Below, one piece after another: positions 6,762 to 11,143 of a stretch of 33,076 bases of DNA (position 1 is the first letter of the stretch; each line of letters begins with the position of its first letter). This stretch comes from Candidatus Zymogenus saltonus (GTDB taxonomy: Bacteria; Desulfobacterota; Zymogenia; Zymogenales; Zymogenaceae). A model generated the notes under the pieces. It searched no databases and was not told the origin of the DNA. It saw only the letters and a program-made list of their open reading frames with translations. The stretch spans positions 1 to 33,076 of the forward strand of contig JAFGIX010000020.1 in the NCBI GenBank assembly GCA_016929395.1, read 5' to 3'. Both the position numbers and the translations under genes were made by a program.

Positions 6762-9146
6762 TTAGAGCTCCAGGACCAGCCTTCCCCCCTGCCAGATGGT
6801 GAAGCAGACGATCCAAGCCAAAACTAAGGTGTAAAGGACCAAAAATCCGGCCCATCCCCAGCTCCCCGACTCCTGCTTCACCACTGCCACCGTGGCCATG
6901 CAGGGCGTCGACAGGAGGGAAAAGACCATGACGACAATTGCGAGGAGGATCCCCGCCCTTCCCGCAAAGAGGGGGTCGTCTCTCACCGACTGGATGAGGG
7001 CCTTGCTCTCCGCCCCGACTTCCCCGCCGAGGGAGTAGAGCGTTCCCATCGCCGCCACGAACACCTCCTTTGCCGCAAAGGACGCAACCATAGCAACGGA
7101 AAGCCGCCAGTCCATCCCCAGCGGCCTAAATACAGGCTCTATCCCCCTGCCTACCTTGCCGCCGTAGGAGAGGGAGAAGAGCTCCATCGCCTCTTTGTTG
7201 TCGATCTCCTCGATGTCGGGGAGGTACTTTTCCCTGTAGACGGAAACCGCATCGAACAGGTCGGGACTTTCCGCCTTGAGTACCGACAGCTCTTTGTCGA
7301 GGGTATCCTTTGCCGATTTGTATCCCTCGTCCCCCTCCTCGAATCCCCCCTCCTCGACCGCCTTGTCGAATTCGGCGTAAGGCAGGTATTTGTCGTAAAG
7401 ATCGCCCCCCTCTTCGAGGGCGCCCGGCTTGAATCCGGTCTCCTGTACAAACTCGGTCTTTCTATTTTCCCTCAGCTTGTCGTAGTCGACCTTTGTATCG
7501 GGATTTCTGGGGAAGGTGAAGAGAAACCAGATGACTATCGATATGGCGAGGATGATCGTCCCCGCCTTCTGGACATAGTGCTTCGAACGATCCCACATCT
7601 GCACGAAAATCTCCTTCAGCGTCGGAATCCTGTAGGGTGGAAGCTCGATTACGAGGGGCGGGGACTCCCCTTTTAATATCGTGGCCTTGAATATAAGGGC
7701 CATCACCATCGCCACCAGGATTCCCCCGAAGTAGAGGGAGAAGAGCGTGAATCCCTGGGCGTCGATCAGCCCCCCGAATATCTTCTTCTGCGGTATCAGG
7801 GCCGAGATCATAAGTGTGTAGACGGGGAGTCTGGCCGAGCAGGACATAAGGGGGGCCAGGAGCATCGTGACAAGCCTCCCCTTTTCCGACTCGATCGTCC
7901 TCGTCGCCATTATCCCGGGGATGGCGCAGGCGAAGGACGAGAGGAGCGGGACGAAGGCCTTCCCGTTCAGCCCGAACTTCTCCATGACCCTGTCCATGAT
8001 GAACGCCGCCCTGGCCATGTAGCCGGAGCCCTCCAAAAGCGCGATGAAGAAAAAGAGGAAGAGTATCTGGGGGAGAAAAATAAGGACCCCCCCCACGCCC
8101 CCGATGATCCCGTCGACAACAAGGCTCTGGATCAATCCCTCCGGGATTATGAGTGCGGCGACGCTCCCCATCCATCCGAAAAAGGCGTCGATTAAATCCA
8201 TAAAGGGGCCCGCCCATTTGAAGACGCCCTGAAAGACTATGTACATCACGCCGACGAATATCGGAATCCCGAGGAGGTTATTCAGGAGAACCTTGTCGAT
8301 CTTGTCGGACACGATTATGTGATCCTCTCTGATGTGTCTTACCGCCTTCTTCATCGTGCCCTTGATAAATCCGTAGCGTCCCTCGGCTATCAGGTTTACC
8401 GAGTCCTCCTTGAGAACCTTCAGCAGGTTTTCCCTGCTCCCTTCAAGGGCGGTCTCTATCTCCTCCCATTTTTCATCTTCCGACAGCCTCTTTTCCACCT
8501 CTGTGTCGTGCTCCAGGAGCTTTACCGCGAGCCACTGGGGGGAGAATCCTGATTCCGAAAGGGACGACTTTTCTATGATCTCCGCGAGCCTCGCTATCTC
8601 CTCTTCCACCCTGTCTTCATAATATATCTTGCTCGGAGTCGACTCGATCTTTCCCTCGGCGACCATAACGATCGTCCGCTTGAGCTGATCCAAGCCCGTC
8701 TTCTTGTTGCCGATTGTTTTCACTATCGGAATGCCAAGGAGCCCGGAGAGCTCTTCAACATTAATCTCGATCCCCCTCAGCTCCGCAAGGTCTGTCATGT
8801 TGAAGGCCAGGATCAGTGGAACGTTCATCTCCATAAGCTGAACGGCGAGGTAGAGGCTCCGCTCGAGGTTCGAGGAGTCGATGATGTCGACCACCATGTC
8901 CGGCTTTTCCTCGACTATGAAATTCCTCGCCACTAACTCCTCGAGGGAATAGGCGGTAAGGCTGTATGTCCCCGGAAGGTCGATGAAATTTACCTCCCTC
9001 CCCTCGATTTTTATCTTTCCCTCCTTCTTCTCCACTGTAATGCCGGGGTAGTTCCCCACCATATGTCTCGAACCCGTCAGGGCGTTGAAGATGGTGGTTT
9101 TTCCGCTGTTTGGGTTTCCGGCTATCGCCACATTAATAACGCTCAT
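6762..9146 (-). CDS. feoB: ferrous iron transport protein B
   Basis: FeoB (794 residues) imports Fe2+ across the inner membrane. The N-terminal G domain shows GNPNSGKT (residues 10-17, G1), NYPGITVE (switch), DLPGTYSL (G3) and NMTD (G4), followed by the helical GDI-like region. The membrane core from about 290 carries the two Gate/nucleoside-recognition repeats and the conserved Cys segments in SSFACAIPGIMATR and APLMSCSARLPVY. Between about residues 545 and 672 there is an acidic, charged insertion of over 100 residues before VFRPLGMDWR, larger than the corresponding loop of the E. coli protein. The start has AGGA about 8 nt upstream. FeoA is not a separate gene here but is fused to the regulator upstream. 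A palindromic operator lies 137 nt upstream. Confidence 0.96.
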   Translation of the reverse strand: MSVINVAIAGNPNSGKTTIFNALTGSRHMVGNYPGITVEKKEGKIKIEGREVNFIDLPGTYSLTAYSLEELVARNFIVEEKPDMVVDIIDSSNLERSLYLAVQLMEMNVPLILAFNMTDLAELRGIEINVEELSGLLGIPIVKTIGNKKTGLDQLKRTIVMVAEGKIESTPSKIYYEDRVEEEIARLAEIIEKSSLSESGFSPQWLAVKLLEHDTEVEKRLSEDEKWEEIETALEGSRENLLKVLKEDSVNLIAEGRYGFIKGTMKKAVRHIREDHIIVSDKIDKVLLNNLLGIPIFVGVMYIVFQGVFKWAGPFMDLIDAFFGWMGSVAALIIPEGLIQSLVVDGIIGGVGGVLIFLPQILFLFFFIALLEGSGYMARAAFIMDRVMEKFGLNGKAFVPLLSSFACAIPGIMATRTIESEKGRLVTMLLAPLMSCSARLPVYTLMISALIPQKKIFGGLIDAQGFTLFSLYFGGILVAMVMALIFKATILKGESPPLVIELPPYRIPTLKEIFVQMWDRSKHYVQKAGTIILAISIVIWFLFTFPRNPDTKVDYDKLRENRKTEFVQETGFKPGALEEGGDLYDKYLPYAEFDKAVEEGGFEEGDEGYKSAKDTLDKELSVLKAESPDLFDAVSVYREKYLPDIEEIDNKEAMELFSLSYGGKVGRGIEPVFRPLGMDWRLSVAMVASFAAKEVFVAAMGTLYSLGGEVGAESKALIQSVRDDPLFAGRAGILLAIVVMVFSLLSTPCMATVAVVKQESGSWGWAGFLVLYTLVLAWIVCFTIWQGGRLVLEL

Positions 9147-9282: not shown

Positions 9283-9298
9283 GTTAGACATGCCTAAC
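9283..9298 (-). promoter_or_regulatory. metalloregulator operator upstream of feoB
   Basis: GTTAGACATGCCTAAC is a 16-bp palindrome with 7 of 8 paired positions matching. Its partner at 10227-10242 matches 13 of 16 positions, so two sites flank the regulator gene. A weak promoter, TTGTCG (9304-9309), 17 nt, TAACTT (9281-9286), on the minus strand would place the operator between -35 and -10. The sequence resembles TTAGG..CCTAA sites read by DtxR-type regulators more than a classical Fur box. Confidence 0.72.
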
Positions 9299-9330: not shown

Positions 9331-10035
9331 CTAAAAGTGGTTTACCAGGACCCACACCTTTCTCGAAAGCATGTGGCCCAGGGCGATTCGGCTCCCGTCC
9401 ACTGCGATGATTGTGGGGCCGGGCCTGCCCGCGTTTAACACCTCGACCTCCTTTCCGACTGAGAGCCCCATTGAGAGAAGGCGGTTCTTCAGCCTGTGTC
9501 CCCCCATGAATCTCTCTATTCTCACCCTCTCCCCCGGATTTGCGTCGCTGAGGCGGATGAACTTCTCTCTCTCCCCCTGGCATTTATCGCAGAGTCCGTA
9601 CATGGTCAGGCTGTGTTTGAGGGGCAAAAACCCGTGGTATGCGGCCACACTATTCTGCAGATGCTCTATATCGGCGTCTTCAAATTCGAGTATCTTCCCG
9701 CACTTGACGCAGATCATGTGATCGTGGTGTTTTCCGAGATGAAGGTGCTCGTAGAGAACGTTCCCGTCCTGATTTTCGACCTTTTCTGCAAGGCCGTATC
9801 GCTCAAAAATATCCATGTAATCGGAGATCTTCTGGGGAGTAAGAAAAAGGCCTGCGGCCTGAGACATCTCATGCAGCTTGTTAAGCGAGAGGTGATTTTC
9901 CGAATCCAAAAATAGATCGAGGAGCTTGAACCGCTCTTCGGGATTTTCAAGGCCGTCTTCTGAAAAAACGGTGTAGAACTTGTTTATGATCTCTTCTCTC
10001 TCCCTCTTTTCGTTATGGTTCCTTCTTACGGCCAT
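9331..10035 (-). CDS. Fur-FeoA fusion: iron-responsive regulator with C-terminal FeoA domain
   Basis: This 234-residue protein joins two iron proteins. Residues about 15-155 form a Fur-family repressor: a winged helix (about 30-95), the metal-site HHDH (103-106), and the two structural zinc pairs CVKC (109-112) and CDKC (149-152). Residues about 160-232 are a complete FeoA/SH3-like domain: RLSDANPGERVRIERF, GHRLKNRLLSMGL, EVEVLNAGRPGP, SRIALGHMLSRKVWV. FeoA normally is a small separate protein that assists FeoB, and the same fold is the C-terminal domain of DtxR. The fusion could sense iron through Fur, touch FeoB through FeoA, or use FeoA as a DtxR-like regulatory module. It is encoded 184 bp upstream of feoB on the same strand and preceded by an operator and a consensus promoter. 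No frameshift separates the halves. Confidence 0.92.
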   Translation of the reverse strand: MAVRRNHNEKREREEIINKFYTVFSEDGLENPEERFKLLDLFLDSENHLSLNKLHEMSQAAGLFLTPQKISDYMDIFERYGLAEKVENQDGNVLYEHLHLGKHHDHMICVKCGKILEFEDADIEHLQNSVAAYHGFLPLKHSLTMYGLCDKCQGEREKFIRLSDANPGERVRIERFMGGHRLKNRLLSMGLSVGKEVEVLNAGRPGPTIIAVDGSRIALGHMLSRKVWVLVNHF

Positions 10036-10065: not shown

Positions 10066-10197
10066 CCCATCCCCGCTTTTGTACCGTGCCCGCCTTTTAC
10101 CCCGTCCCCCGTCCCCGTTTTTGCCCCACTCCCTCTTTTTGCCCTTCGCCTGCCTCCTTCCCCGTCCCCGCTTTTGCCCCATCCCCTCTTTTGCCCA
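10066..10197 (-). repeat. G-rich tandem repeats in the regulator's 5' leader
   Basis: About seven imperfect copies of a 17-18-bp unit; on the minus (RNA-sense) strand it reads CAAAAGCGGGGAYGGGG. Two segments fulfil the four-run G-quadruplex pattern on the sense strand: 10160-10186 (four runs of G4, loops of 2, 7 and 2) and 10100-10127 (runs of G4, G4, G5, G4, loops of 7, 2 and 2). They lie between the predicted transcription start (about 10242) and the start codon at 10035, so they would be in the mRNA leader. Confidence 0.8.
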
Positions 10198-10226: not shown

Positions 10227-10242
10227 ATTAGGCAAGACTAAC
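10227..10242 (-). promoter_or_regulatory. metalloregulator operator at the fur-feoA promoter
   Basis: ATTAGGCAAGACTAAC on the plus strand, arms TTAG and CTAA with inner G-C pairs. It matches the feoB site at 13 of 16 positions. It begins at the predicted +1 and runs downstream, a position where a bound protein would block initiation or clearance. Confidence 0.7.
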
Positions 10243-10468: not shown

Positions 10469-11143
10469 ATGAGCGGTGAATCGGATAAATCGAGGGAAGT
10501 TTCAGGGTCGACGGATCAGACCATAGGGGAGGAGATCGCAAACAGCATCACCCACGGGATCGGGGTTGCCCTCTCCATAGCGGGACTGGTGCTTCTGGTA
10601 GTCTTTTCGAGCCTCTACGGCGACGCATGGCGGGTCGTCACTTTTTCAATCTACGGAGCCACGCTGATAATTCTCTACCTCGCCTCGACCCTCTACCACG
10701 GCTTCACAAATCCAAAAGTCAAGCATTTTTTCAGGGTTATGGACCATGCGTCTATTTACCTTTTAATAGCAGGATCCTATACGCCCATAACCCTTACCGT
10801 AATGCGTGGTCCCTGGGGCTGGACCCTTTTCGGCCTCATCTGGGGGATGGCTATAGCTGGGATAATCACGAAGTTCTTCATAATAAACAAGCTCAAAATT
10901 CTCTCCGTATTATTTTACATCGCTATGGGGTGGCTCGTCGTAATAGCCATCAAGCCGATGCTCATAATGGCCCCCAAGGGATTGATAGTCTGGCTCGTCA
11001 TAGGAGGGCTGAGCTACACCTTTGGTATAATCTTCTACGCCCTGGATAAGATGCCCTATAGTCACACCATATGGCACCTCTTCGTGATGGGGGGGAGCAT
11101 TTCCCACTTTTTCGGGATGTTTTTCAACCTGACAAGGGTTTAA
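10469..11143 (+). CDS. hemolysin III family (PAQR-like) membrane protein
   Basis: This 224-residue protein has about seven hydrophobic segments and the family signature: GEEIANSITHGIGVAL near the N-terminus, STLYHGF after the second helix, MDHASIYLLIAGSYTP in the middle and SHTIWHLFVMGGSISHFF at the end. Conserved Ser, Asp and His residues in these motifs form the metal site known in the eukaryotic PAQR/adiponectin receptor relatives. Bacterial members (YqfA/HlyIII) are inner-membrane proteins of uncertain function, possibly hydrolases; the 'hemolysin' name comes from one Bacillus cereus homologue. AGGA lies about 10 nt before the ATG. It is divergent from fur-feoA and does not share its operator. 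Confidence 0.92.
   Translation: MSGESDKSREVSGSTDQTIGEEIANSITHGIGVALSIAGLVLLVVFSSLYGDAWRVVTFSIYGATLIILYLASTLYHGFTNPKVKHFFRVMDHASIYLLIAGSYTPITLTVMRGPWGWTLFGLIWGMAIAGIITKFFIINKLKILSVLFYIAMGWLVVIAIKPMLIMAPKGLIVWLVIGGLSYTFGIIFYALDKMPYSHTIWHLFVMGGSISHFFGMFFNLTRV

Follow-up and report, generated by a model that had tools for sequence, protein, structure and literature searches.

What does a protein do in which a Fur-type iron sensor and a FeoA domain are joined in one reading frame, and does it still act on DNA? The question is raised by a locus in the window, i.e., the whole stretch of 33,076 nucleotides analyzed here, with the following features:

9331–10035, minus strand: Fur-FeoA fusion gene, 234 amino acids, ATG start, single open reading frame without internal stop
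9598–9954, minus strand: Fur domain, residues 28–146 (Pfam FUR), with the full metal ligand set and an acidic winged helix
9349–9555, minus strand: FeoA domain, residues 161–229 (Pfam FeoA), of the 'RxALGxxxxxK' subtype
6762–9146, minus strand: FeoB, ferrous iron transporter, 794 amino acids, downstream of the fusion on the same strand
9283–9298, no strand assigned: DtxR/IdeR-type palindrome GTTAGACATGCCTAAC, between the fusion gene and feoB; minus-strand core TTAGGCATGTCTAA
10228–10242, no strand assigned: DtxR/IdeR-type palindrome TTAGGCAAGACTAAC, upstream of the fusion gene

The in-frame joining of Fur and FeoA, the adjacency to feoB and the lack of a separate feoA, all claimed in an earlier sequence-only reading, were confirmed. 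The frame is free of stops, and the matches to Pfam FUR (E = 2.3e-19, 70.1 bits against a cut-off of 23.1) and Pfam FeoA (E = 6.7e-17, 61.8 bits against a cut-off of 23) lie far above the curated cut-offs. Apart from one sub-threshold unrelated match, the domain search of the window protein returned only these two domains and no DtxR helix-turn-helix or dimerisation domains. The feoB gene follows directly after the fusion gene, and its product scored 588.9 bits against TIGR00437 (cut-off 315.65). No stand-alone feoA was present in the window genome (99.6% complete), where the only other FeoA domain forms the C-terminus of a DtxR protein on contig C28. Three other Fur-family genes in this genome all have ordinary recognition helices (TVYRN, SVYRS, and SVYRT). 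Further features of the locus were a long charged insert in FeoB (~residues 555–680), ahead of the last transmembrane part, and imperfect C-rich direct repeats with units of 37 to 53 nt at 10066–10197, in the segment that separates the fusion gene from the 10228 box. A haemolysin-III family membrane protein gene (10469–11143) is divergent from the fusion gene and shares with it the intergenic region that holds the 10228 box.

The Fur-FeoA protein is a recurrent architecture of the window's phylum. When a profile of the fusion was searched in 395 genomes of this phylum, a stop-free fusion spanning both domains was counted in 68 of them among the matches listed, the window included, distributed over 28 family groups. 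Three named records, all Deltaproteobacteria/Thermodesulfobacteriota MAGs, also carried the fusion (L003, L004, and L005). A sequencing error or frameshift placing two separate genes in one frame, which the sequence-only reading had named as one outcome that would overturn it, was ruled out by the open fusion in these three records and, beyond the window genome, in 67 genomes of the phylum. Samples of three other phyla, comprising 198 genomes for the phylum of G399 and 17 and 247 genomes for the other two, gave no member of the fused clade among the matches listed and at the E-value thresholds applied, limits under which weak members could have been missed. Based on a tree of the 71 fusions and 63 unfused Furs, all fused Fur domains fell on one side of a single branch (SH-aLRT 99 for the full domain). 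The same split was obtained from 58 columns of the sensor half alone (SH-aLRT 91), and is hence not due to the DNA-binding half alone. In the phylum of G399, one genome (L170) encodes a Fur-FeoA protein followed by FeoB; its Fur domain groups with the unfused Furs, indicating an independent fusion.

The sequence-only reading had described the Fur part as a complete repressor, a description that held for the metal ligands and the fold and failed for the DNA contacts. In the window protein, all ligands of the structural zinc site (two CxxC) and of the regulatory metal sites were found, namely H48, E96, H103, H104, D105, H106, C109, C112, E117, E124, H141, C149, and C152. Across the 71 fusions, nine of the 12 iron/zinc ligands tested were invariant (H33, E81, H88, D89, H90, C93, C96, E101, and C133 in E. 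coli Fur numbering), and the less constant H87, E108, and H125 were present in 57, 57, and 64 proteins, respectively. Structure and mutation of Magnetospirillum Fur have demonstrated that K15, Y56, and R57 grip the DNA, R57A abolishing, Y56A nearly abolishing and K15A weakening binding ~10-fold (PMC4506495). A Lys or Arg at the Lys14/15 position was observed in 2 of 71 fused versus 61 of 63 unfused proteins, Tyr56 in 0 of 71 versus 61 of 63, and Arg57 in 1 of 71 versus 62 of 63, with Asp or Glu in place of Arg57 in 42 fusions. All three contacts were missing from 67 of the 71 fusions and present together in 58 of the 63 unfused Furs. The window protein has E30, S71, and D72 at these positions; since H48 and E96 are separated by the same 48 residues as H33 and E81 of E. 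coli Fur, the assignment of S71/D72 to Y56/R57 is independent of gaps. The mean net charge of the recognition helix was −1.55 in fused and +1.78 in unfused proteins, and the median for the whole DNA-binding domain was −4 and +2, respectively, with −9 in the window protein. The charge of the dimerisation half hardly differed between the two groups. An AlphaFold2 model of the window protein (mean pLDDT 84.7, pTM 0.48) placed helices where expected but, as a monomer model, does not define the domain arrangement; the best fold matches were solved Fur structures. Because the contact residues are lost, the fusion has very probably ceased to recognize Fur boxes.

DNA binding through other winged-helix contacts is conceivable, and the fusion might remain a transcription regulator with a changed operator, in which new residues of the winged helix read the site while FeoA contributes control that depends on metal or FeoB. 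The fold of the winged helix is retained and predicted with good confidence (residues 31–80), the Fur family is otherwise DNA-binding, and palindromes lie at both promoters of the window locus, one at 9284 before feoB and one at 10228 before the fusion gene. These palindromes share the form TTAGG-N5-CTAA, which differs by one base from the 14-bp IdeR/DtxR half-site TTAGGNNNNCCTAA (PMC8464063). Nine such sites were found in the window genome, fewer than in a reversed control, and four of the nine lie at feo loci, i.e., the two in the window and two on contig C28 (C28:50077, ~27 bp before the DtxR-FeoA start, and C28:51004, before a second feoB). This second feo locus (contig C28 of genome G000, ~50077–53230, L164) mirrors the window layout in the order box, DtxR-FeoA, box, feoB. 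The box positions were repeated in both fusion-bearing relatives of the family (L099 and L112), and hence in three of three species with the window. In other families, an upstream box was found at only 1 of 65 fusion loci, so that the palindromes follow DtxR and not the fusion. As the boxes are of the DtxR/IdeR type and also stand before the DtxR-FeoA gene of this genome and its feoB, repression of the window locus is probably exerted by DtxR. The local palindromes are therefore unlikely operators of the fused Fur, and the proposal that the fusion acts as a Fur repressor on two local operators was not borne out, the DNA contacts being lost clade-wide. Since most fusions carry a net negative charge on the recognition helix and L1 loop, and Arg57 is so often exchanged for an acidic residue, a changed operator appears unlikely.

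Upstream of the window gene, the best match to the delta-proteobacterial Fur box consensus (PMC545781) had 5 mismatches in 14 positions, and E. coli-type Fur boxes upstream of the fusions did not clearly exceed chance. With three or fewer mismatches, the delta-proteobacterial box was found in 8 regions upstream of fusions versus 1.8 expected, a modest enrichment, and seven of the eight are loci with a tandem canonical Fur. A canonical Fur adjoins the fusion at 22 of the 68 loci (13 tandem, 9 divergent). Many of these neighboring Furs (L093, L096, L098, L101, and similar loci) read HHCH rather than HHDH; this exchange of the metal ligand Asp89 for Cys was observed in 23 of the 63 unfused Furs. 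Such adjacency, together with the tendency of tandem loci toward Fur-box-like sites, would fit a dominant-negative partner that uses its intact dimerisation domain to form inactive heterodimers with canonical Fur and thereby tunes that Fur, an idea already proposed for D. desulfuricans FUR2, which has no DNA-binding domain (PMC545781). However, 46 of the 68 loci, the window among them, have no adjacent canonical Fur, the fused and neighboring Fur domains lie far apart in the tree, and the FeoA domain would be left unexplained; we consider this explanation rather improbable.

The FeoA half, in turn, keeps the hydrophobic positions proposed for contact with FeoB. The window domain matched the solved FeoA structure 3e19, of SH3-like fold (E = 2.6e-11), and was predicted with a pLDDT of 90–97 across most of its length. 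FeoA has been reported to contact the G-domain of GTP-state FeoB and to slow hydrolysis, and a hydrophobic clamp was proposed to form the contact (PMC8980893). The clamp positions of the window protein are L182, L186, M189, I217, and L219. Across the 71 fusions the clamp is mostly hydrophobic, with Leu, Met or Ile in all 71 at both the I27 and the M30 position and more variation at F23. A PxxP motif has been proposed as the binding partner of the clamp; the window FeoB lacks it as such and has PIVK there. Two FeoA subtypes could be distinguished by their C-terminal ends: '..DP.E...KGYH.SLR..EA..I' in stand-alone and DtxR-linked domains and '..VAV..R.ALG.G.A.K..V' in fused ones. Being of another subtype than stand-alone FeoA, the fused domain may bind FeoB differently.

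For half of the fusions (34 of 68), the next gene on the same strand is feoB or the feoA of a feoA/feoB pair, mostly in the order Fur-FeoA, feoA, feoB. Most feo loci with a fusion also carry an ordinary feoA, which is missing from the fusion locus in the window's family. The other half have no feoB within about 5 kb. This counts against a FeoB-directed role; there the fusion would have to act in trans or on some other partner. Since FeoB was found in all 15 fusion genomes tested, 12 of which were selected for having their fusion at a distance from feoB, action on FeoB in trans is possible. The neighbors of such distant fusions recur by family (L137, L146, and L153; L097 and L103) and include proC-like and DNA polymerase delta-subunit-like (holA-like) genes and, elsewhere, hypB/hypD-like or trpB-like genes.

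The sequence-only reading had also offered the acquisition of a DtxR-like module by a Fur, an origin that the comparison does not favor. FeoA domains of the fused subtype occur in three unfused fur-feoA pairs (L009, L161, and L163) and the C28 DtxR carries a classical-subtype FeoA, suggesting that the fused FeoA came from a neighboring feoA gene, although the FeoA tree has too few columns to place this origin firmly. The unfused fur and feoA genes overlap in L009, and in L160, L161, and L163 they share a frame before feoB with at most a stop codon between them. The same arrangement is found in L162, with no feoB detected. Adjacent fur-feoA pairs could easily fuse, and a fusion could as easily split into such a pair. 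Triple Fur-FeoA-FeoA proteins with a second FeoA of classical subtype and feoB as the next gene were observed in L101, L105, and L156.

Taken together, the fusion, its single clade, the conserved metal ligands, the lost DNA contacts, the DtxR-type boxes and the frequent feoB adjacency point to an Fe(II) sensor that derives from Fur and now regulates FeoB post-translationally through FeoA, a reading to which we assign a probability of about 0.5. We infer that the fusion binds Fe(II), contacts FeoB and restricts import. A Fur paralogue would have retained its metal-sensing and dimerising half and given up the reading of Fur operators. In an iron-replete cytosol, the Fur part would bind Fe(II) and change the shape of the dimer, which would in turn govern the contact between the FeoA part and the FeoB G-domain and allow fast throttling of import. 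Another iron regulator would take care of transcription at the locus, namely DtxR-FeoA in the window's family and, at about a third of the other loci, the canonical Fur encoded beside the fusion. Of the regulator suggested in the sequence-only reading, which could contact FeoB and link transport to transcription, the real in-frame fusion beside feoB and a plausible tie between iron sensing and FeoB are supported, but not a working Fur repressor. That the fusions form a widespread class of Fur proteins without DNA binding that sense cytosolic Fe(II) and gate FeoB directly through the fused FeoA has, in our estimate, slightly less than an even chance. A passive Fur half that serves as a scaffold or iron-holding dimeriser and supplies FeoA to FeoB without sensing would suit the window genome, where the fusion is the only FeoA besides that of DtxR and may simply be FeoB's helper, but it is quite unlikely, since the regulatory-site ligands H33, E81, H88, H90, and E101 are invariant over 71 proteins whose DNA face diverged freely, as expected if metal binding is under selection, and since an ordinary feoA is also present at most feo loci with a fusion.

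If the proposed regulation of FeoB holds, a metalloregulator has been turned into a post-translational transport valve. The protein bears on two questions, the mode of action of FeoA on FeoB and the rapid shut-off of ferrous iron import. A natural iron sensor joined to FeoA without DNA-reading residues makes the link between sensor and transport directly testable in one protein, through targeted mutations of metal site and clamp and a GTPase activity that can be measured. Such genes should not be annotated as Fur repressors. A description of Fur-FeoA was not found in the open-access full-text literature, and an earlier mention in subscription journals, outside this scope, is possible; FeoA with 'an additional domain' has been mentioned without Fur being named (PMC8749426).

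Among known systems, Fur itself (PF01475) shares with the fusion its fold, all three sets of metal-site ligands and the dimerisation half, and provides the nearest solved structures; the fusion differs in lacking the K15, Y56, and R57 contacts, in its acidic winged helix and in its C-terminal FeoA. DtxR, IdeR and MntR proteins with a C-terminal, SH3-like FeoA likewise combine a metal sensor with FeoA beside feoB, and the C28 DtxR-FeoA locus parallels the window locus within the same genome, but their sensor is unrelated, DtxR is a DNA-binding family, and its FeoA is here of the classical subtype. FeoC of Gammaproteobacteria, a small winged-helix protein that binds the cytosolic domain of FeoB, is a functional parallel only, with neither a Fur sensor nor FeoA. 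The Fur-FeoA of L170 also precedes FeoB, but it keeps its DNA contacts (ATVYRT). FUR2 of D. desulfuricans is another Fur protein thought unable to bind DNA (PMC545781), but its DNA-binding domain is wholly missing and no FeoA was reported. Fusions of FeoA with FeoB, FeoA and DtxR are already documented; the FeoAB fusion of Bacteroides fragilis and FeoA-FeoA fusions (PMC8980893, PMC8749426) resemble the present protein in fusing FeoA within the Feo system, the partner there being FeoB or FeoA and here a metal sensor.
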